A DNA stretch of 64,000 nt from an uncultured bacterium. Lineage in GTDB: Bacteria; Pseudomonadota; Gammaproteobacteria; Burkholderiales; Burkholderiaceae_C. The stretch is from NCBI GenBank assembly GCA_903830565.1, contig CAIKUF010000146.1, positions 1 through 64,000 of the forward strand, read 5' to 3'. The position numbers and the translations under genes were made by a program. Shown piece after piece: positions 53,399 through 62,596 of this stretch. Each line of letters opens with the position of its first letter. Position 1 is the stretch's first letter. Below the pieces are notes generated by a model, which saw only the letters and a list, made by a program, of their open reading frames with translations, did not search any database and was not told the origin of the DNA.

Positions 53399-54358
53399 AT
53401 GGCACTGTCGCCTTCGTCTCCCATCGCGACGCGAGCCGCTCAGGCCACGCCGGCCCCCCTGGCGCGCCGCATGCGCGGCCTGTCGGACCGCGCAATCGCC
53501 TGGCTGTTCATCGCGCCGACGATGCTGCTGCTGCTGGCGATCAACATCTTTCCGCTGATCTGGACGATACGGCTGTCGTTCACCAACTTCCGCGCCAATC
53601 GGCCGAATGCCGAGGTCGTCGGCGTCGGCATCGAGCACTACGTGTCGATACTCAACGACCCCGACATCTGGGGGCCGATGCAGGCCACCGCGCACTTCCT
53701 GTTCTGGACCATCGCGCTGCAGACGCTGATCGGCTTTGGCCTGGCCTGGCTGATCGACCGCAAGTTCCGCGGCCATGGTTTCTGGACCACGCTGATCCTG
53801 ATCCCGATGATGCTGTCGCCGGCCGTGGTGGGCAACTTCTGGGCCTTCATCTACCAGCCGCAGATCGGCCTGTTCAACTACGTCGTTTCCTTCTTCACCG
53901 GCATCCCGCCGTCGAGCTTCGAGATGCTCGGTTCGGTGCGGCTCGCGCCGTGGGCGATCGTGATCGTCGACACCTGGATGTGGACACCCTACGTCATGCT
54001 GATCTGCCTGGCCGGCCTGCGCAGCATCCCCGACTACATCTACGAAGCGGCCGAGGTCGACCGGGCCTCGAGCTGGCGCCAGTTCTGGGGCATCACGCTG
54101 CCGATGGTGCTGCCCTTCATCATGCTGGCGGTGCTGTTCCGCGGCATCGAGAACTTCAAGATGTTCGACCTCGTGAACCTGCTGACCAACGGCGGCCCCG
54201 GCTCGACCACCGAGGTGGTGTCGATCACGCTCAAGCGCGAGGCCTTCGAGAAGTGGCGCACCGGCTACTCGTCGGCGCTGGCCATCATCCTGTTCGTCGC
54301 CGTGTTTGGCCTGGCCAACATCTACGTCAAGGCGTTGAACGCCGTGAAGAACAGGTAG
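53399..54358 (+). CDS. Sugar ABC transporter permease 1
   Basis: A 319-residue binding-protein-dependent permease (MalF-type). Six helices are predicted. Seen: RAIAWLFIAPTMLLLLAINIFPLIWTIRLSF near the N terminus, and the EAA loop YEAAEVDRASSWRQFWGITLPMVLP with the conserved EAA---G--- pattern. ATG at 53399 gives a short cytosolic leader before helix 1. It works with permease 2 and two ATPases. The start codon lies 31 bp after the palindrome described above. Confidence 0.9.
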   Translation: MALSPSSPIATRAAQATPAPLARRMRGLSDRAIAWLFIAPTMLLLLAINIFPLIWTIRLSFTNFRANRPNAEVVGVGIEHYVSILNDPDIWGPMQATAHFLFWTIALQTLIGFGLAWLIDRKFRGHGFWTTLILIPMMLSPAVVGNFWAFIYQPQIGLFNYVVSFFTGIPPSSFEMLGSVRLAPWAIVIVDTWMWTPYVMLICLAGLRSIPDYIYEAAEVDRASSWRQFWGITLPMVLPFIMLAVLFRGIENFKMFDLVNLLTNGGPGSTTEVVSITLKREAFEKWRTGYSSALAIILFVAVFGLANIYVKALNAVKNR

Positions 54359-54364
54359 CCGGCG

Positions 54365-55321
54365 ATGAGCCAGGGCATCAGAACCGCGCACAGCGTCGTC
54401 GAGCCGACGAACACCGCCAAGTTCGTCGCCGCCACGCTGGTGGCGCTGTATGCGCTGATCACGCTGGTGCCGCTCTTGTGGATCGGCCTGACCAGCATCA
54501 AGAGCCCGACCGACTCGATCAGTTACCCGCCCAAGCTGTTCTTCGCACCGTCGACGGTGGGCTTTTGCAACCTGTTCACGACGCGCTCGCGGCAGACGCC
54601 CGAATACATCGCCAGCCTGCCGCCGGCCGACAACGCCTGCGAGCGCAATGCGCGCGAGAACAACATGGTCGTGGTCAGCCGCTCGAACTATGTGCCGCGT
54701 TTCATCAACTCGCTGATCATCGCCATCGGCTCCACCGTGCTTTCGGTCGGGCTGGGTGTGATGGCGGCCTACGCCTTCAGCCGCTTCAAGGTGCCGGGCA
54801 AGGACGACCTGCTGTTCTTCATCCTCTCCACGCGCATGATGCCGCCGATCGCGGTGGCGATACCGATCTACCTGATGTACCGCCAGCTTGGCCTGTCGGA
54901 CACGCGCATGGGCATGATCCTGCTCTACTCGGCAGTCAACGTGTCGCTCGCGGTGTGGCTGCTCAAGGGCTTCATCGACGAGATTCCGCGCGAGTACGAA
55001 GAGGCGGCGATGGTCGACGGCTATACCCGGCTGCAGGCTTTCCGCAAGGTGGTGCTGCCGCAGGCCACCACGGGCATCGTCGCCACCGCCATCTTCTGCA
55101 TGATCTTCGCGTGGAACGAGTACGCCTTCGCGGTGCTGCTGACGAGCGGCGAGGCGCAGACCGCGCCACCCTTCATCCCCATCATCATCGGCGAGGGCGG
55201 GCAGGACTGGCCCGCGGTGGCCGCCGGCACGATGCTGTTCCTGCTGCCTATCCTCATCTTCACCGTGCTGCTGCGCAAGCATCTGCTGCGCGGCATCACC
55301 TTCGGCGCGGTGCGCAAATGA
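54365..55321 (+). CDS. Sugar ABC transporter permease 2
   Basis: A 318-residue permease (MalG-type). Seen: VAATLVALYALITLVPLLWIGLTS, SLIIAIGSTVLSVGLGVMAAYAF, and the EAA loop YEEAAMVDGYTRLQAFRKVVLPQA. Between helix 1 and helix 2 there is a long polar stretch of about 60 residues (FCNLFTTRSRQTPEYIASLP and NACERNARENNMVVV) with two cysteines that could form a disulfide in the periplasm. This extra loop is longer than in most MalG-type permeases. The stop overlaps the small membrane protein gene. Confidence 0.88.
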   Translation: MSQGIRTAHSVVEPTNTAKFVAATLVALYALITLVPLLWIGLTSIKSPTDSISYPPKLFFAPSTVGFCNLFTTRSRQTPEYIASLPPADNACERNARENNMVVVSRSNYVPRFINSLIIAIGSTVLSVGLGVMAAYAFSRFKVPGKDDLLFFILSTRMMPPIAVAIPIYLMYRQLGLSDTRMGMILLYSAVNVSLAVWLLKGFIDEIPREYEEAAMVDGYTRLQAFRKVVLPQATTGIVATAIFCMIFAWNEYAFAVLLTSGEAQTAPPFIPIIIGEGGQDWPAVAAGTMLFLLPILIFTVLLRKHLLRGITFGAVRK

Positions 55322-55494
55322 GCTGGCCGAAGTGGGCCCGCCGCGGGCCGATGGAGTTGGCGGCCTGCGTCGTCATCGCGCTCGGCATCTTCATGATGCT
55401 GCAGCCCTTCGCGCTGGTGCTGTTCACGTACTCGTTCGCGACGACGCTGGGCGGCGTGGCGATGTTCACCATCGTCTCCAAGTTCCCGGCCTAA
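55318..55494 (+). CDS. 58-residue membrane protein of the ABC operon
   Basis: A 58-residue protein starting at an ATG that overlaps the permease-2 stop (ATGA) and ending 9 bp before the first ATPase gene. It has two hydrophobic helices (MELAACVVIALGIFMMLQPFA region and VAMFTIVS end). I do not recognise a family. Small membrane proteins occur in several polyol ABC operons in proteobacteria, but none was matched here. Tight packing on both sides argues for a real coding gene. Its role may be to stabilise or modulate the transporter. Confidence 0.68.
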   Translation: MSWPKWARRGPMELAACVVIALGIFMMLQPFALVLFTYSFATTLGGVAMFTIVSKFPA

Positions 55495-55503
55495 GCCCAG
55501 ACC

Positions 55504-56616
55504 ATGGCCGAGATCCGCGTCCAGAACCTGCACAAGGCCTTCGCCGATTTCGTGGCGGTGCAGGACTCGAGCTTCACCGTGCGCGACGGCGAGTTCTTCT
55601 GCCTGCTCGGGCCCTCGGGCTGCGGCAAGACCACCACCTTGCGCATGATCGCCGGCCTGGAGCTGCCCACGCGCGGCCAGATCTTCCTCGGCGATGAGGA
55701 TGTGACCTTCAAGCGCGCCTCGCACCGCGACATCGCCTTCGTGTTCCAGCTCTTCGCGCTGTACCCGCACCTGAACGTGCGCCGCAACATCGCCTTTCCG
55801 CTGGTCTCGCAAGGCATGCCGCGGCGCGAGATCGATGCCAAGGTGGAAGAGGCGGCGCGCATCCTGCGCATCGCGCCGCTGCTCGACAAATCGGTGTCGG
55901 GCCTGTCCAGCGGCGACCGTCAGCGCGTGGCCCTCGGCCGCGCCATCGTGCGCCAGCCGCTGGCCTTCCTGATGGACGAGCCGCTTGGCGCGCTCGACTC
56001 CGAGTTTCGCGAGCTGATGTGCGGCGAGCTGCGCGGCCTGCATGAACGGCTCAAGGCGACCACGGTCTACGTCACCCACGACCAGATGGAGGCAATGGCG
56101 ATGGCCGACACCATCGCCATCATGAACCGCGGCGTGGTCGAGCAGCTTGGGTCGCCGCAGGAGGTGTACGACCGTCCGGCTTCGGTGTTCGTGGCCGACT
56201 TCATCGGCGCGCCGCCGATGAATTTCATCCCCTTCTTCGGCGGCTATGCGGCCGGCGCCAGCGAGGTCGAAATCGGCGAGGCGCGCATCGCCGTGCCGCC
56301 GCTGGCACAGAGCCTGAGCGAGCGCGAGCTGCTCTGCGGCGTGCGGCCCGAGCATGTGCGCTTCGACCCCGCCTCCGGGCTGCGCGCCGAAGTGCTGGGC
56401 AGCGAGTACCTGGGCCACAGCCAGATCGTCACCCTGCACACCGCCGTGGGCTCGACGCTGCGCGCCAAGGTCGGCATCGAGGTGTCGGCGCAGCGCGGCG
56501 ACCGTGTCGGCCTCGCCTTCGACGCGGCGGCGGTGTCGCTGTTCGACAAACAAAGTGGCCTTGCGCTGCAGCATCGCACCCAGCCCCGGTCGGTGCGCGG
56601 GGTCGCTCATGGCTGA
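55504..56616 (+). CDS. Sugar ABC transporter ATPase 1
   Basis: A 370-residue MalK/UgpC-type ATPase. Seen: Walker A GPSGCGKTTTLRMIAGL, Q-loop FVFQLFALYPHL, a signature reading LSSGDRQRVALGRAI rather than the common LSGGQ, Walker B FLMDEPLGALD, and H-loop YVTHDQMEAMAMAD. A C-terminal OB-fold region (LLCGVRPEHVRFDP) is present. The altered signature is known in a subset of such ATPases. ATG at 55504. The ATPase-2 gene overlaps by 8 bp. Confidence 0.9.
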   Translation: MAEIRVQNLHKAFADFVAVQDSSFTVRDGEFFCLLGPSGCGKTTTLRMIAGLELPTRGQIFLGDEDVTFKRASHRDIAFVFQLFALYPHLNVRRNIAFPLVSQGMPRREIDAKVEEAARILRIAPLLDKSVSGLSSGDRQRVALGRAIVRQPLAFLMDEPLGALDSEFRELMCGELRGLHERLKATTVYVTHDQMEAMAMADTIAIMNRGVVEQLGSPQEVYDRPASVFVADFIGAPPMNFIPFFGGYAAGASEVEIGEARIAVPPLAQSLSERELLCGVRPEHVRFDPASGLRAEVLGSEYLGHSQIVTLHTAVGSTLRAKVGIEVSAQRGDRVGLAFDAAAVSLFDKQSGLALQHRTQPRSVRGVAHG

Positions 56617-57634
56617 TTTGCGGCTCGACGGAGTGGGCAAGCGCTTCGGCAGCGTGCAGGCGGTGCACGAGCTGTCGATAGACATCGCCAGCGGCGAGTT
56701 CATCGTCCTGCTCGGCCCCAGCGGCGCCGGCAAGACGACCACGCTGCGGCTGGTCGCCGGGCTGGAGAAGCCCGATGCCGGCCGCGTGCACATCGCCGGG
56801 CGCGACGTCAGCGAGGATGCACCCGCCCTGCGCGACGTGACCTTCGTGTTTCAGCAGTACTCGCTTTACCCGCATCTGAGCGTGTTCGACAACCTGGCCT
56901 TCCCGCTGCGCTCGCCGATGCGCCCGATCGGCGAGAGCCAGGTGCGCGACAAGGTGAATGAGGTCGCGAAACTGCTGCGCATCGACGACAAGCTCGCCAG
57001 CCCGGCCACCAAGCTCTCGGGCGGCCAGATGCAGCGCGTGGCCATCGGCCGCGCGCTGGTGCGCGACCCGGCGGTGACGCTGATGGACGAGCCGCTGTCC
57101 TCGCTGGACGCAAAGCTGCGCAACGACCTGCGCCTGGAGTTGAAGCGCATCCAGCAGGATCTGGGTGCGACCATGCTCTACGTCACCCACGACCAGACCG
57201 AGGCGCTGACGCTGGCCACGCGCATCGGCGTGCTGGACCGCGGACGCCTGGTGCAGGTGGGCAGCCCGCGTGACATCTACGAGAACCCGCTCACCAGCGT
57301 AGTGGCCGCGCGCCTGGGGTCGCCGCGCATCAACCTGCTGCCACGCGCGGCGCTGGGCGAGTGGCCGGCGCCGGCCGATGCAGCCACGGTGGGCGTGCGC
57401 GCCGAGCATCTGCAGTTGCACACCGACGGCAGCGCGCCGACGCCACACCTGCGGGCCGAGGTGCACCGCATCGAGATCCTGAGCGACCAGCGCCTGGTGC
57501 ACCTGACGTGGGGCGAGGGCCGGCACAGTGCCGTCAGCTCGGCCTTCAACGAGGCCAACCTGGAACCGGGCGCGCAGGTCGGCGTGGAGCTGCGCCGCAC
57601 GCTTTGGTTCGACGCCGCAGGGCGCCGCGTCTGA
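56609..57634 (+). CDS. Sugar ABC transporter ATPase 2
   Basis: A 341-residue MalK-type ATPase, different from the one upstream. Seen: Walker A GPSGAGKTTTLRLVAGL, signature LSGGQMQRVAIGRALVRDP, Walker B TLMDEPLSSLDAKLR, and H-loop YVTHDQTEALTLA, with a C-terminal OB-fold region. Two ATPase genes in one operon suggest a heterodimeric motor, as in glycerol and some polyol importers. ATG at 56609 lies 8 bp inside the upstream gene. dhaL follows after 26 bp. Confidence 0.9.
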   Translation: MADLRLDGVGKRFGSVQAVHELSIDIASGEFIVLLGPSGAGKTTTLRLVAGLEKPDAGRVHIAGRDVSEDAPALRDVTFVFQQYSLYPHLSVFDNLAFPLRSPMRPIGESQVRDKVNEVAKLLRIDDKLASPATKLSGGQMQRVAIGRALVRDPAVTLMDEPLSSLDAKLRNDLRLELKRIQQDLGATMLYVTHDQTEALTLATRIGVLDRGRLVQVGSPRDIYENPLTSVVAARLGSPRINLLPRAALGEWPAPADAATVGVRAEHLQLHTDGSAPTPHLRAEVHRIEILSDQRLVHLTWGEGRHSAVSSAFNEANLEPGAQVGVELRRTLWFDAAGRRV

Positions 57635-57660
57635 AGACCCCTTCTCGTCCGGAGATTGCC

Positions 57661-58263
57661 ATGCCCCAGAGCCCGTTGATCCAGGTGGCCACGCAGACGC
57701 TGATCGACCACGTCGACGAGCTGACCGCGCTCGACCAGGCCATAGGCGATGGCGACCACGGCCTGAACATGAAGCGCGGCGCGCTGGCCATCCAGGCCAA
57801 ACTCCCCGAGTGGCGGGGCAAGCCCTTCAACGACACGCTCAAGGCGATGGGCCTGGTCTGCATGTCGACCATAGGCGGCTCGTCAGGACCAGTCTTCGGC
57901 ACCTTGCTCGTCACGCTGGCCAAGGAGCTGCCGGCCGAACCCGGGCCGGCCGATGTGTCCAGCGCGCTGCGCGCCGGCATCGCGGCGCTGACGCGCCTGG
58001 GCAAGGCCGAGGTGGGGCAAAAGACCCTGCTCGACGTGCTGGACCCGCTGCAGCGGCTGCTTGCGCAGGCCACCGCGGGCGAGGCCGGCCTGCTCGAGCG
58101 CACCCGCCAGTGCGCCTTCGACGCGGCCGAGGCCACCGCGAAGATGGATGCCATCAAGGGCCGCGCCTCGTTCCTGGGCGATCGGGCGCTCGGCCATGTC
58201 GACCCGGGTTCGCGTTCGATGGCATTGATCGTCGGCTCGATCTGTGACAGCCTTTCCACCTAG
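57661..58263 (+). CDS. dhaL: Dihydroxyacetone kinase subunit DhaL
   Basis: A 200-residue DhaL-type nucleotide-binding subunit. Seen: the metal/ADP-binding DQAIGDGDHGLNMKRGA with the Asp-x-Asp-x-His cluster, TIGGSSGPVFGTLL, and a C-terminal KGRASFLGDRALGHVDPGS helix. In PTS-dependent enzymes DhaL carries ADP as cofactor and receives phosphate from DhaM; in ATP-dependent enzymes of the same fold ATP is used directly. No DhaM gene is visible. Ribosome site GGAG at 57650-57653, ATG at 57661. dhaK follows after 68 bp. Confidence 0.9.
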   Translation: MPQSPLIQVATQTLIDHVDELTALDQAIGDGDHGLNMKRGALAIQAKLPEWRGKPFNDTLKAMGLVCMSTIGGSSGPVFGTLLVTLAKELPAEPGPADVSSALRAGIAALTRLGKAEVGQKTLLDVLDPLQRLLAQATAGEAGLLERTRQCAFDAAEATAKMDAIKGRASFLGDRALGHVDPGSRSMALIVGSICDSLST

Positions 58264-58331
58264 GTTCAAGCGCCGCGCAGCCGCCGGGCCATGCCGCCTG
58301 AGCACACACCCTCCATCGCCGAGAGACCGCC

Positions 58332-59321
58332 ATGAAGAAGCTCATCAACCACGTCGACAGCGTGCTCGAAGAATCGCTGGATGGCTTTGCCGCCGCCCAT
58401 GCCGACATCGTCAGCCTGGGGCCGCAGCGCGAGTTCGTTCGCCGGCTGCACACCAAGCCAGGCAAGGTGGCGCTCATCTCCGGCGGCGGCTCGGGCCACG
58501 AGCCGCTGCATGCCGGCTTCGTCGGCCACGGCATGCTGGATGCAGCCTGCCCGGGGCAGGTCTTCACCTCGCCGACGCCGAACCAGATGTTGGCCGCGGC
58601 TGAAAGCGTGGACACCGGTGCCGGCGTGCTCTTCATCGTCAAGAACTACTCCGGCGACATGATGAACTTCCAGATGGCCGCCGAGATGCTGGACCGCGAC
58701 AACGCCACCGTCATCGTCAACGACGACGTGGCCGTCGAGAACTCCACCTACACCACCGGCCGGCGCGGCGTGGCCGGCACGCTGATCGTCGAGAAGATCG
58801 TCGGCGCCGCGGCCGAGCGCGGCGACGGCCTGGCCGCGCTGAAAGTGCTGGGCGACGCCGTCAACAAAGCGACCGCGTCGATGGGCGTGGCGCTGAGCTC
58901 CTGCACCGTGCCGGCCGCCGGCAAGCCGACCTTCCAGATCGGCGCCGACGAGATGGAAATGGGCGTGGGCATCCACGGCGAGCCGGGCCGGCGGCGCGTC
59001 AAGATCGCCACCGCCGACGAGATCGCCGCCGAGCTCGCCGGCGCGGTGTTGAAGGATCTCTCGCTGCGCCCGGGGCAAGAGGCGATCCTGCTCGTCAACG
59101 GCTTCGGTGGCACGCCTGCGCTGGAGCTCTACCTCATGGTCCACGCCGCGTTGAGGGTACTCGGCGGGGCCGGTGTGAAGGTCGTGCGTCATCTCACGGG
59201 CTCGTACGTGACTTCGCTCGAGATGGCCGGCTGCTCGATCACCGTCACCGCCGCCGACGCAGCGCAGCTCGCGCTCTGGGATGCGCCGGTGAACACCGCT
59301 GCGTTGCGCTGGGGGATCTGA
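58332..59321 (+). CDS. dhaK: Dihydroxyacetone kinase subunit DhaK
   Basis: A 329-residue DhaK-type substrate-binding subunit. Seen: SGGGSGHEPLHAGFVGHGMLDAAC, KNYSGDMMNFQMAAEML, and SCTVPAAGKPTF followed by EMGVGIHGEPG, whose histidine forms the covalent hemiaminal with the ketone substrate. Such subunits also serve erythrulose or other tetrulose kinases. With DhaL it is expected to phosphorylate a short keto-sugar produced by this cluster. Convergent with oxyR, with only 45 bp between the stops. Confidence 0.92.
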   Translation: MKKLINHVDSVLEESLDGFAAAHADIVSLGPQREFVRRLHTKPGKVALISGGGSGHEPLHAGFVGHGMLDAACPGQVFTSPTPNQMLAAAESVDTGAGVLFIVKNYSGDMMNFQMAAEMLDRDNATVIVNDDVAVENSTYTTGRRGVAGTLIVEKIVGAAAERGDGLAALKVLGDAVNKATASMGVALSSCTVPAAGKPTFQIGADEMEMGVGIHGEPGRRRVKIATADEIAAELAGAVLKDLSLRPGQEAILLVNGFGGTPALELYLMVHAALRVLGGAGVKVVRHLTGSYVTSLEMAGCSITVTAADAAQLALWDAPVNTAALRWGI

Positions 59322-59366: not shown

Positions 59367-60287
59367 TCACGACAACCGCATCACCCCTTCGAGCTTGCAC
59401 GCATAGACCGCGTTGCGCAGCGCGGCGATGGCCTCGTAGCGCGGGAAACTGCGCCGCCAGGCGAGCACCACGCGGCGCGTCGGCACCGGCGGGCTGAAGG
59501 GCACGTAGACGACGTGGGTCTGCTTCTCGCGCGGCACCGAAAGCTGCGGCACCACCGTCACCCCCATGCCCGAGGCGACCATGTGCTTGATGGTTTCGAG
59601 CGACGAGCCCTCGAAGCTCTTGCGTATGCCCTCGGCGTCGCTGGCGAAGCGCGCGTACTCGGGGCAGACCTCGAGCACGTGGTCGCGAAAGCAATGCCCG
59701 GTGCCCAGCAGCAGCAACGTCTCGCGCTTGAGCTCCTCGGCCGGGATGCTCGCGCGCGCGGCCAGCGCATGCGTGCGCGGCAGGGCGATCATGAACGGCT
59801 CGTCGTAGAGCTTGGCGACGGCCAGGCCCGAGTCGGGGAAGGGCTCGGCGAGGATCGCGCCATCGAGCTCGCCGCTGCGCAGCATGTCGAGCAGCCGGGC
59901 GGTGAAGTTCTCCTGCAGCATGAGCGGCATCTGCGGCACGCGCTTGATCGCCTGCCGCACCAGCGCCGGCAGCAAGTAGGGGCCGATGGTGTAGATCAGC
60001 CCGAGGCGCAGCGGCCCGGCCAGCGGGTCCCTGCCGCGCTTGGCGGTCTCCTTGATGGCGGCGGCCATCTCGATCACCGCCTGCGCCTGGCGCACGATCT
60101 CTTCGCCCAGCGGCGTCACGCCGACCTCGGTGCTGCCGCGCTCGAAGAGCTTCACGTCCAGCTCTTCCTCGAGCTTCTTGATCGCGACGGAGAGCGTCGG
60201 CTGCGAGACGAAGCACGCCTCGGCGGCGCGGCCGAAATGCCGCGCGCGAGCGAGCGCGACGATGTAGCGCAGTTCGGTCAGGGTCAT
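59367..60287 (-). CDS. oxyR: Hydrogen peroxide-sensing regulator OxyR
   Basis: A 306-residue LysR-family regulator. The HTH is ARHFGRAAEACFVSQPTLSV. Cys199 and Cys208 lie in GTGHCFRDHVLEVCPE at the same numbers and spacing as the peroxide-sensing cysteines of E. coli OxyR, so the disulfide switch is intact. It activates peroxide-defence genes. The ATG at 60287 gives this numbering; the longer reading is rejected. In Pseudomonas oxyR is linked to recG; here a retron and a recG fragment lie upstream. Confidence 0.96.
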   Translation of the reverse strand: MTLTELRYIVALARARHFGRAAEACFVSQPTLSVAIKKLEEELDVKLFERGSTEVGVTPLGEEIVRQAQAVIEMAAAIKETAKRGRDPLAGPLRLGLIYTIGPYLLPALVRQAIKRVPQMPLMLQENFTARLLDMLRSGELDGAILAEPFPDSGLAVAKLYDEPFMIALPRTHALAARASIPAEELKRETLLLLGTGHCFRDHVLEVCPEYARFASDAEGIRKSFEGSSLETIKHMVASGMGVTVVPQLSVPREKQTHVVYVPFSPPVPTRRVVLAWRRSFPRYEAIAALRNAVYACKLEGVMRLS

Positions 60288-60454
60288 ATGGGGGATTGTG
60301 CCGCGTGGTGCCACAGTCGACGCGTGAGCACCGGTCCTTGCCTTCGGACCAGATGGCCGGTGCGGCGCGATCATCAAGTAGCGCCCACTTGGCGTGCGAG
60401 ATTGCTGGTCACACGCGCTGAAACCAGCGGCACCAGTCGTCTGCCGCGCTCCTT

Positions 60455-60490
60455 AACTACGGCGTCAAACGTAGTTCGCCAACGGCGAAC
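60455..60490. promoter_or_regulatory. Two abutting inverted repeats upstream of the retron promoter
   Basis: AACTACG (60455-60461) and CGTAGTT (60470-60476) form a 7-bp inverted repeat with an 8-bp spacer. GTTCGCC (60474-60480) and GGCGAAC (60484-60490) form a second 7-bp repeat with a 3-bp loop, ending 7 bp before the -35 box. They could be an operator for the XRE protein encoded downstream, or a terminator for readthrough from oxyR-side transcription. Confidence 0.55.
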
Positions 60491-60497
60491 AAAGTTC

Positions 60498-60526
60498 TTG
60501 CATTTCGTGTGGCTGCGCGCTACACT
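60498..60526 (+). promoter_or_regulatory. Sigma-70 promoter of the retron
   Basis: TTGCAT (60498-60503), a 17-bp spacer and TACACT (60521-60526) form a good sigma-70 promoter. Transcription should start near 60533, about 17 nt before the a1 repeat of the ncRNA. An A/T-richer context distinguishes it from the oxyR flank. Confidence 0.7.
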
Positions 60527-60532
60527 GGTTTT

Positions 60533-60889
60533 GCTTGGGCTAAAGAGAGCACTCGTTAATCGTGGGGATGTGGCAACGCATCTCGTGGGGCTGAAAGGCT
60601 CTGATGTTCTCTGCGGTCACGCGGCGCCAGCACGCTGGGGTCCGGGTGGTTGCGGCGAAGCCGGTCCCGGACGAGTTCCGGGACCGGTTAAGGGGCCCAG
60701 GGGTGCAAACAGTCGACGTTCTCTCACTTTCTTCAGAACTGACGAGAGGCTCTGCATGTCGCGGGGTCGTTTTGAAGAAGGAGGCATCAAATGCCTGAAG
60801 GTTGGAAGCGTTCAAGCCGTCGGCTGGCATCGAAGAAGGAGAGTCTGCGGGGGTGGTTGTTCCCGCCATCGCGTGGTGCTAACGAGTGT
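60533..60889 (+). ncRNA. Retron msr-msd RNA with a1/a2 inverted repeat
   Basis: The predicted primary transcript of a retron. CACTCGTTA (a1, 60550-60558) is perfectly complementary to TAACGAGTG (a2, 60880-60888), extended by a G-U pair, a 9-10 bp end repeat separated by some 320 nt. Inside lie an 8-bp hairpin with a GCAA (GNRA) loop at 60565-60584, a perfect 11-bp hairpin with a CGAGT loop at 60661-60687, an AGGCAT/ATGCCT hairpin at 60782-60796, and a GCGGG/CCCGC pairing at 60847-60866. A guanosine following a1 (for example 60562) would be the branch point. The msr/msd boundary is not determined. The region has no convincing protein frame. Confidence 0.75.
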
Positions 60890-60963
60890 CATCGGGGTTG
60901 GTAAGGCCCTGCTGTACATCTGGAGCATCTGGCACCGATTCCGAGATGACCTCTGGCCTTTTT

Positions 60964-61278
60964 ATGTTCCGACGACTGGGTACGCAGATGCAGCATGAAG
61001 CGCTTCGTTTGGTTCGAGTGTTCCACGACCTGAACCAGAATACCTTGGCAGATCGACTGCAGGTTTCGAAGTCTTACCTCTCGGAAGTCGAGAGCGGCAA
61101 GAAGCAGGCAACGCTGGAATTGCTGCAGAGGTACGCAGACACATTCGGTATGCCGCTTTCTTCCCTGCTCTTCTTCGCTGAGCAGGTCGAGGGAGGCGCC
61201 CGCGAAAATGCTCGCAACGCAATTGCGGGCAAAGTCGTCAAGATGTTGGATTGGATGGCGGCCAAGGACGCCGTTTGA
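60964..61278 (+). CDS. XRE-family HTH protein of the retron
   Basis: A 104-residue protein with an XRE/Cro helix-turn-helix: LRLVRVFHDLNQNTLADRLQ and VSKSYLSEVESGKKQATLEL. A further helical tail (AGKVVKMLDWMAA) may mediate dimerisation. It lies between the ncRNA and the reverse transcriptase. HTH-bearing retrons are a recorded group, so it may be the retron accessory (effector or regulator) protein. The start is uncertain: ATG at 60964 is chosen on the typical MFRRLGTQ leader; 60946 is an alternative and neither has a strong ribosome site. The reverse transcriptase starts 9 bp after its stop. Confidence 0.85.
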   Translation: MFRRLGTQMQHEALRLVRVFHDLNQNTLADRLQVSKSYLSEVESGKKQATLELLQRYADTFGMPLSSLLFFAEQVEGGARENARNAIAGKVVKMLDWMAAKDAV

Positions 61279-61287
61279 GGGGTAGTT

Positions 61288-62220
61288 TTGGCCACCCGCA
61301 AGACCTATGCGCTCACCCAGTGCCCTCTATACAAGATCGCCAGCCGCAAGCGCCTGGCGCAAGAGGTCTTCAACGTCGACCTGGCGTTTCTCGAACGCCT
61401 CGCAGCCAACGAGGGTAACTTCCGCGTCTTCAGGATAAAGCAGGGAGACAAGGAACGTCAGGTCGAAGTTCCGAAGGTTGTCCTTGAGCGAATCCATCGC
61501 CGCCTTTTCAACTTGCTTGAGCGAATCGAGAAGCCTGACTATCTGCACTCTGGCGTACGAGGGCGTTCGTACATATCGAATGCAAAGACCCACGTCGGCA
61601 CCGTCCCGCTCGCAAAGCTAGATCTCAAGAAGTTCTATCCCTCGGTCGATGGTGCGCGTGTCTCAAGATTCTTCACCGGCACTTTGTGCTGTAGTCCAGA
61701 TGTCGCCGCACTTCTGACACGGCTATTCACGTTCGAGAATCATGTTCCGACGGGCAGTTGCGTCAGCCAGTTGCTTGCGTTCTATGCAGCCAAGCCCATG
61801 TTCGACGAACTACACGCCTTGGCGGCAGATGCCGACGTGCGCGATAGCTGCTACGTGGATGACTTGACTTGGTCTGGTCTGCGGGCAACGCCAGCGTTCT
61901 TATGGGCGGCGAAGCAGGTCGTGCATCGACACGGCTTTGGATATCACAAGGATCGCTGCTATGCCGCTGGTGATAGAAAGCTTGTGACTGGTGTGTTGTT
62001 GGACGGCGAGCGCATCGCAGTTATCCCAAGCAGGGAATTCGATCTTTGGAGGAGTATCCATGCACTCGGTAGTTTCGAGCCGCAGGAGCGCGTCGTCGCC
62101 GTGAATAGCCTTATCGGTAAAGTGGTCGCGGCCGGCCAGATAGAAGCTCGGCTCTTGCGGCGACTGTTGAGGCTTAGACGAGTGAGGGCCACTGCTATTG
62201 CCGAACGTGAAGTCACTTAA
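61288..62220 (+). CDS. Retron reverse transcriptase
   Basis: A 310-residue reverse transcriptase, the usual length of retron enzymes. It uses the 2'-OH of a guanosine in its own ncRNA to prime cDNA (msDNA) synthesis. Seen in order: retron-specific NAKTH (the NAxxH region-X motif, residues 98-102), LDLKKFYPSV with the first catalytic Asp112, motif-4-like PTGSCVSQLLAF (154-165, with Gln where Pro is common), catalytic YVDD (189-192) and VTG (233-235, the region-Y motif). The start is a TTG at 61288 with GAGGGG at good spacing. GC is about 50-55%, far below the neighbours. Cotranscribed with the XRE gene. Confidence 0.93.
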   Translation: MATRKTYALTQCPLYKIASRKRLAQEVFNVDLAFLERLAANEGNFRVFRIKQGDKERQVEVPKVVLERIHRRLFNLLERIEKPDYLHSGVRGRSYISNAKTHVGTVPLAKLDLKKFYPSVDGARVSRFFTGTLCCSPDVAALLTRLFTFENHVPTGSCVSQLLAFYAAKPMFDELHALAADADVRDSCYVDDLTWSGLRATPAFLWAAKQVVHRHGFGYHKDRCYAAGDRKLVTGVLLDGERIAVIPSREFDLWRSIHALGSFEPQERVVAVNSLIGKVVAAGQIEARLLRRLLRLRRVRATAIAEREVT

Positions 62221-62347: not shown

Positions 62348-62596
62348 CTAAGCGTTCAGGTACTCCGACCGCGTCCCCAACCACCGCGCCACCTTCGCGC
62401 GCGCGTTGCAGCAGCGCGGCGCCCGACTGGCGCGAGCCCATGAACTCGCCCGGGCCGCGGATCTCGAGGTCGCGGCGCGCGATCTCGAAGCCGTCACCGG
62501 TCTCGATCATCGTCTTCAGGCGCGTGCGGTCCCGCCCAGCGGCGTGCTGTAGAGCAGCACGCTGCCGCTCGCCACCGTGCTGCGCCCGACGCGCCC
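62348..62596 (-). pseudogene. recG: recG 3'-end remnant, frameshifted
   Basis: The minus strand holds pieces of the C-terminal part of the RecG helicase: GRVGRSTVASGSVLLYSTPL (motif VI region), then after a frameshift RLKTMIETGDGFEIARRDLE continuing with IRGPGEFMGSRQSGAALL, then after a deletion of about 60-70 residues and another frame change, VARWLGTRSEYLNA as the end. Only about 83 of some 690 residues remain. It lies immediately behind the iron permease stop, so recG was cut and decayed. In related bacteria recG and oxyR are neighbours, so this marks the original site into which the retron came. An intact recG elsewhere cannot be judged. Confidence 0.82.

Follow-up and report, generated by a model that had tools for sequence, protein, structure and literature searches.

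A type VI retron whose RNA may act on the leader of a small basic peptide gene

Which part of the DNA in front of a retron reverse transcriptase (RT) is the retron RNA, and on what does the element act? Both questions are raised by a locus in a 64,000-nt stretch of contig CAIKUF010000146.1 (assembly GCA_903830565.1), from an uncultured bacterium of the Burkholderiaceae_C; the whole stretch is called the window below. The order at the locus is RNA, small ORF, HTH gene and RT gene (Table 1). Among PADLOC models, the RT matches RT_VI at 245.6 bits (1.4e-73), with the runner-up at 113.8 bits (1.8e-33), and this profile score assigns it to the type VI clade. The protein encoded just upstream matches HTH_VI (105.2 bits, 3.7e-31), so that a type VI HTH protein adjoins the RT. 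The closest solved structure by sequence is the Ec86 RT in the PDB (6.1e-9), and the window's genome contains one match to this RT. Judged by these protein matches, the locus is a type VI retron, a little-studied type. They also agree with the sequence-only reading of this DNA, which had a retron RNA of a divergent class start here.

Table 1. Position of the features of the retron locus in the window
Feature	Position	Strand	Evidence or remark
Palindromic operator GTTCGCCAACGGCGAAC, probable site of the HTH protein	60474..60490	.	palindrome count across loci
Promoter-like hexamers TTGCAT and TACACT, 17-nt spacer	60498..60526	+	by inspection
a1 (CUUGGGCU)	60534..60541	+	pairs with 60694-60701
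AGC, candidate branch G at 60549	60548..60550	+	G invariant in 11 of 11
Segment m* (CUCGUUA), complement of m in M2 and in the SD hairpin	60552..60558	+	alignment, complementarity across the family
msr hairpin 1, GNRA loop	60565..60584	+	100% of lettered cells paired, 4 of 8 pairs double-changed
msr hairpin 2, GAAA loop	60587..60602	+	98.4% of cells paired
msd hairpin M1	60611..60655	+	82.6% of cells paired, 7 of 10 pairs double-changed
msd hairpin M2, loop with motif m GACGAG at 60670-60675	60659..60689	+	85.3% of cells paired, 6 of 13 pairs double-changed
a2 (GGCCCAGG)	60694..60701	+	pairs with a1; alignment counts, RNAalifold
SD-sequestering hairpin	60727..60781	+	covariation; similar layout in distant type VI loci
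Outer stem of SD hairpin	60727-60739 with 60769-60781	+	95.0% of cells paired, 8 of 13 pairs double-changed
5' bulge of SD hairpin, motif m GACGAG	60741-60746	+	
Inner stem of SD hairpin	60748-60755 with 60761-60768	+	100% paired, 3 of 8 pairs double-changed
Shine-Dalgarno (SD) AAGGAGG of small ORF	60778..60784	+	largely paired within the hairpin
Small ORF, candidate effector peptide, ATG at 60791	60791..60904	+	longer in-frame homologues
Hydrophobic C-terminal part, in another frame in the window	60873..60968	+	VVLTSVIGVGKALLYIWSIWHRFRDDLWPFYV in frame +1
HTH (XRE-like) protein, 96 aa	60988..61278	+	HTH_VI 3.7e-31, HTH_3 1.7e-10
Retron reverse transcriptase, 310 aa, TTG start, YVDD motif	61288..62220	+	RT_VI 1.4e-73

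Relatives of the RT were found by a scan of genome contigs (L056-L064, 56-87% RT identity), one of them also by a whole-genome search (L032, identical to L058 over the stretch compared). Three further loci (L033, L034 and L035) have kept the small ORF, and no HTH gene was seen in the stretch examined. Type VI RT and HTH genes are also found on four Peduoviridae phages (L106-L109), which indicates that phages themselves carry the system. A scan with Rfam gave no family at its gathering score in the window, nor in the RNA region of 18 type VI loci; over 19 sources including the window, the only families were fstAT (L104) and a tRNA (L111), both outside the element. A sub-threshold match to anti-hemB at 61162-61238 was taken as chance because it lies inside the HTH gene. 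Upstream of the retron, the window carries a LysR regulator gene (59367-60377), preceded at 53399-59321 by ABC transporter-like genes (two permeases and two ATPases) and dihydroxyacetone-kinase-like subunits, identified from their translations only. Just downstream lies a fragment of the end of recG (62412-62501, minus strand) with an ABC permease gene beside it, and a longer frame with the same recG match occurs about 4 kb further on the same contig (G000:C146, 66605-66793, minus strand). This arrangement is read as a rearrangement or an insertion next to a LysR gene.

The sequence-only reading had delimited the RNA by CACTCGTTA at 60550-60558 and TAACGAGTG at 60880-60888, taken as a1 and a2. 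Both are present, and the region is indeed well folded (-162.9 kcal/mol for 60533-60892, z -4.0 against shuffles; z -4.2 for the shorter cut 60533-60800). The GNRA-capped stem is found at 60565-60584 with the loop GCAA, and so is the long perfect stem, which extends over 60659-60689 and has 13 pairs in the window instead of the 11 bp reported. A single msr-msd reaching from 60550 to 60880, about 330 nt, has in its favor a perfect 9-nt complement that belongs to the window's own minimum-energy fold. Against it, 35 of 500 dinucleotide shuffles of the region also held a perfect 9-nt inverted pair with at least 100 nt between its arms, which puts the pair near chance. Moreover, conservation in homologous loci had been set beforehand as the point on which this pairing would stand or fall, and it is not conserved: at the aligned places it is complete in 0 of 10 relatives, with 8 of 9 pairs in L056, the closest, and 3 to 6 of 9 in the other nine (the left arm falls in gaps in L061 and L064). 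The supposed a2 also lies within the small ORF, which has a strong SD. On these three counts the pair was rejected, and we regard the model as almost certainly wrong. In L032 the right arm is altered and the left arm unchanged; the left arm, which overlaps segment m*, is conserved for a reason other than this pairing.

Since the a1/a2 assignment was wrong, the length of about 330 nt and the right border at 60880 were wrong too: the retron RNA proper has about 170 nt (60533-60702), and what lies 3' of 60702 is not msd but a hairpin for translation control followed by a small gene. In canonical retrons AGC follows a1. The trinucleotide had been reported as missing here; with a1 reset to 60534-60541, it follows at 60548-60550, as in those RNAs. 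It is complete in 9 of 11 aligned sequences (not in L061 and L064), and its G, by analogy with canonical retrons, is presumably the branch guanosine. Reverse transcription in retrons is primed from the 2'-OH of a guanosine beside the inverted repeats, according to the available part of PMC8989520.

The alignment comprises 11 upstream regions, those of the window, L056, L057, L032, L059-L064 and L066, the last standing for the identical L035. On it, the structure of Table 1, which was built from the window's fold and by inspection, pairs 92.1% of 770 cells and shows double changes at 30 of its 73 pairs, and 0 of 500 shuffles were as good on any of five measures. When the partner is slid by 1-3 columns, pairing falls to 37-51%, a comparison that favors the named structure because it partly derives from the window's fold. 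RNAalifold, unprompted, recovered the a1/a2, msr, msd and SD-hairpin helices whole or in part, and did not recover the pairing between m* and m. The first msr hairpin is shorter in L059, L060, L062 and L063 and missing from the L066 row. An RNA with a1/a2 repeats and msr and msd hairpins thus lies beside the RT, and the a1/a2 helix is its least supported part. Seven or eight of its 8 pairs form in 10 of the 11 sequences (5 of 8 in L064), with one-sided changes only and no double change, and RNAalifold predicted 7 of the 8. No a1/a2 helix was found by eye in other subfamilies, and L033 and L034 lack its 5' box. Two further helices, AGAGC:GCUCU, which extends m*:m and competes with the inner stem, and GAGAG:CUCUC, are compatible with the alignment; both hardly vary and were left out. 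In two other subfamilies, RNAalifold gave double changes at 27 of 67 and 25 of 77 pairs; M2 was found in both, and the SD hairpin in the second but not in the first, a phage-group subfamily. On the alignment of 11 sequences, then, the retron RNA of about 170 nt would have two hairpins each for msr and msd, enclosed by a1/a2 at 60534-60541 and 60694-60701.

A hairpin located between a2 and the small ORF buries the SD. In its outer stem, CUUUCUUCAGAAC pairs with GUUUUGAAGAAGG, which is part of the SD, and the mean unpaired probability around the SD is 0.18. The hairpin folds on its own, without pairing between m* and m. When the 75 nt before the small ORF were folded for 28 loci, inspection by eye showed the SD of most leaders paired within a hairpin that is bulged on its 5' side. 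In six of the 28 loci (L033, L040, L041, L072, L103 and L110) the prediction leaves the SD at least half unpaired, and L111 was just under half (0.49).

The small ORF itself is damaged in the window, where it stops after 37 codons and a frame shift separates a basic part from a hydrophobic one. Longer homologues with the hydrophobic part in frame are intact in L056, L057, L032 and L059-L064, and the break is either a real loss or an assembly error. The window hence has, upstream of its HTH gene, a small auxiliary ORF homologous to those of its relatives and out of frame. In most type VI loci, an SD-preceded small ORF ends shortly before the HTH gene. The window's own clade differs: there the ORF runs into the start of the HTH gene and so escaped the ORF rule, and alignment was used to locate it. 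A basic-hydrophobic small ORF is present in 35 of the 39 non-identical upstream regions of a later set, which includes many near-identical prophages; the other four are L185 (doubtful) and L193-L195, of a different class. It is also present in all 14 loci of a further set, two of them of a different class. No convincing small ORF was seen in L044, L067 and L069, and L115 is cut off.

Among 51 chosen loci, all 51 peptides have a net positive charge (median +8, minimum +2), and in 50 the C-terminal half is the more hydrophobic one, the difference between halves being 1.9 against -0.09 (sd 0.9) in shuffled peptides. This hydrophobicity is partly a product of selection, since the ORFs of the two later sets (39 and 14) were chosen with a score that takes hydrophobicity into account and leaves charge out; 25 of the 51 were picked by eye from the first ORF survey. 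Third codon positions differ most in 7 of 7 within-clade pairs, in L056-L032 by one change only. Ten of the peptides were compared with Pfam and with PADLOC and gave no match, and one matches two PHROGs of unknown function. By its composition and position, this small, basic and membrane-like peptide looks like the missing effector of type VI retrons. If so, the effector would be a peptide of about 50 residues, easily overlooked in annotation.

Two other gene arrangements were observed among the loci. A related class with RT and HTH genes (L193-L195, L203, L206 and also L045) carries upstream a small ORF of 68-79 aa, charged in its N-terminal part and hydrophobic at the C-end; the motif rule described below gives no more than 4 shared nt in L203 and L206. 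Furthermore, a TIR-domain gene lies directly 3' of the type VI RT in L113 (Microvirga) and L212 (a Celeribacter plasmid), and its product is perhaps a second effector.

The start of the RNA is flanked by a candidate control region. The two promoter-like hexamers would start an RNA near 60533; this call is weak because it was made by inspection only and the pair was not listed by a consensus promoter scan. A palindrome of the form TTCGC-N3..7-GCGAA occurs upstream of the RNA without mismatch in 28 of 48 loci and with at most one in 37, against 0 and 3 of 188 control zones, respectively. Three of the 11 loci without it lack the HTH gene (L033, L034 and L035, two mismatches each) and eight have one with at least two mismatches in the palindrome (L040, whose zone was mis-set at a contig end, L107, L148, L176, L205, L207, L209 and L212). 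The palindrome is probably the operator to which the HTH protein would bind, as its recurrence at this place indicates.

What may tie the retron RNA to the peptide gene is a short motif. In the window GACGAG occurs both in the M2 loop and in the bulge of the leader hairpin, and CUCGUU (60552-60557), within m*, complements both copies. Across the family, the M2-loop motif, the leader motif and the complementary segment change together. The motif is, depending on the subfamily, GACGAG, GGCGAAA, CTGGA, GCGAGGG, CGATGGC, GGTGGA, TGGGAGA or CCGAGAGGG; for instance, segment and motif are CCCTCGC and GCGAGGG in L071, GCCATC and CGATGGC in L113, and TCTCCC and TGGGAGA in L182. In the alignment, 7 of 11 sequences have a complete pairing of m* with the leader-bulge m.

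A first rule asked for at least 5 nt common to loop and leader. It was fixed on 19 groups made by eye, each represented by one locus, and held in 14 of the 19, compared with 39 of 342 mismatched pairs (0 of 20000 permutations). Applied unchanged to 17 later loci, chosen by eye as not near-identical to the first set and including two relatives of first-set loci (L153 and L172), it held in 6 of 17 against 19 of 272 (8 of 50000). A second rule, at least 6 shared nt, was devised after the 17-locus result had been seen; it gave 12 of 21 against 45 of 420 in the first set and 11 of 17 against 19 of 272 in the later one, a score that is not independent (0 of 20000 each). Unchanged on 14 further loci, it held in 7 against 9 of 182 mismatched pairs (0 of 50000); in this set the upstream region of L201 is identical to that of L140, L202 and L204 are similar to L188, and two loci (L203 and L206) come from another RT-HTH class. 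A complement of at least 5 nt in m* was found in 13 of 18 against 61 of 306 and in 12 of 16 against 55 of 240, with 0 of 20000 permutations in both sets. Dropped before counting were L058, L065, L066, L116 and L039 (identical or near-identical), L124, L151, L152 and L173 (no HTH gene), L196-L200 (no small ORF and no RT match) and L044, L045, L067, L069 and L115. Under the second rule L033, L103, L104, L142, L203, L206, L211 and L214 shared at most 4 nt, and the match in L034 is probably chance. Read by eye, the motif was present in more of the hold-out loci than the rules scored, and these readings are left out of the counts.

By position, the same-sense match falls sharply in the leader hairpin, and the complementary one is spread more broadly over the 5' part of the RNA. 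In 47 loci, which include those where the pattern was first noticed, same-sense matches are most frequent in the bin from -60 to -41 relative to the ATG (29 of 47), with 10 each at -80 to -61 and -20 to -1 and 1 to 6 in the remaining bins. The complementary match gathers at -280 to -201 (8, 6, 12 and 7 in four bins; 0 to 5 elsewhere). At least 6 nt are shared with the leader in 22 of the 47 loci, as against 9 of 423 zones further downstream. Such co-changing motifs suggest that production of the peptide is under the control of the RNA or of a DNA copy of it.

The explanation that we prefer, and hold to be somewhat better than even, is that of a type VI retron in which m* strands, as RNA and as msDNA, act on the peptide leader. 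One transcript would carry the retron RNA, the SD-burying hairpin, the peptide ORF and the HTH and RT genes, and its promoter would probably be repressed by its own HTH protein. A retron RT copies the stretch immediately upstream of a2. M2, the last msd hairpin just before a2, would be the first part copied into msDNA, and since copying its loop into DNA would yield a further m*, the msDNA as well as the msr RNA could pair with the bulge of the leader and thus set translation of the peptide. With two copies of m and one m*, alternative pairings may be formed. Small membrane peptides are often silenced through their leader. For this reason, and because msDNA is the switch of an effector in the retrons described so far (available part of PMC12948488), pairing would most likely keep translation off. 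A phage that removes or occupies the msDNA, or stops the RT, would then free a peptide that may be toxic. A bolder version, which we find rather doubtful, is that type VI retrons are toxin-antitoxin systems with an antisense DNA, made by reverse transcription, as antitoxin. The msDNA, through its apical loop, and the m* RNA would base-pair with the leader bulge of a small membrane-active peptide and shut its ribosome-binding site, and loss of msDNA under phage attack would start its translation. If the preferred explanation holds, retron DNA would act by base pairing on an mRNA rather than by holding a protein.

The same motifs could also belong to an ordinary type VI retron, in which a complex of RT, msDNA and HTH protein inactivates the effector, and m and m* only build a pseudoknot of the ncRNA for recognition by the RT, with no control of translation. 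Known retrons hold their effectors through msDNA (PMC12948488, in the part available), a winged-helix protein of type IX binds the msDNA stem loop (PMC13405049, likewise), and m* could serve only to dock the M2 loop; yet this would leave unexplained the second m in the SD-burying leader hairpin of many type VI loci, and we consider it unlikely, if still worth serious thought. The motif might instead be a site for a protein, RT or HTH, present in both hairpins, with M2 and the leader hairpin having arisen by duplication. Many motifs contain CGA and both sites are looped or bulged stems, which speaks for this. However, the motif is not the same in all subfamilies, and its changes are matched by those of a third, complementary segment; this joint variation points to base pairing and makes the protein site quite improbable.

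Type I toxin-antitoxin systems such as hok/sok and tisB/istR combine a small hydrophobic peptide, an SD hidden in the leader and antisense pairing at that place. The candidate peptide and the SD hairpin of type VI loci would fit this scheme, with the difference that the proposed antisense comes from the retron and is partly DNA, whereas theirs is an antisense sRNA gene. The type IX retron Kva2 (PMC13405049, in the part available) likewise has a protein with a DNA-binding fold and the stem loop of its msDNA as sensor; its effector is a HEPN RNase, whereas here a peptide alone was seen. With the canonical Ec86-type ncRNA, as given in the accessible part of PMC8989520, the window's RNA shares the a1/a2 flanks, msr hairpins and an msd hairpin before a2; it differs in that its a1/a2 is short, with 8 pairs, and in that no Rfam family reaches its gathering score. 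Type VI retrons are the nearest comparison, by the RT_VI and HTH_VI matches and the order RNA, small ORF, HTH and RT, the small ORF being broken in the window's copy. The part of PMC8541194 at hand does not mention the SD-burying hairpin, the network of m and m* or the operator. A search of titles and abstracts, which left most subscription journals and the founding paper outside its range, returned neither a mechanism or RNA structure of type VI retrons nor a description of their leader hairpin and motif network. Already known, from Mestre et al. 2020 as rendered in the same part of PMC8541194, is that type VI retrons have an RT and an HTH protein with small auxiliary proteins, one of which was given a transmembrane prediction; new, within the range of that search, are the RNA anatomy, the leader hairpin and the motif network.
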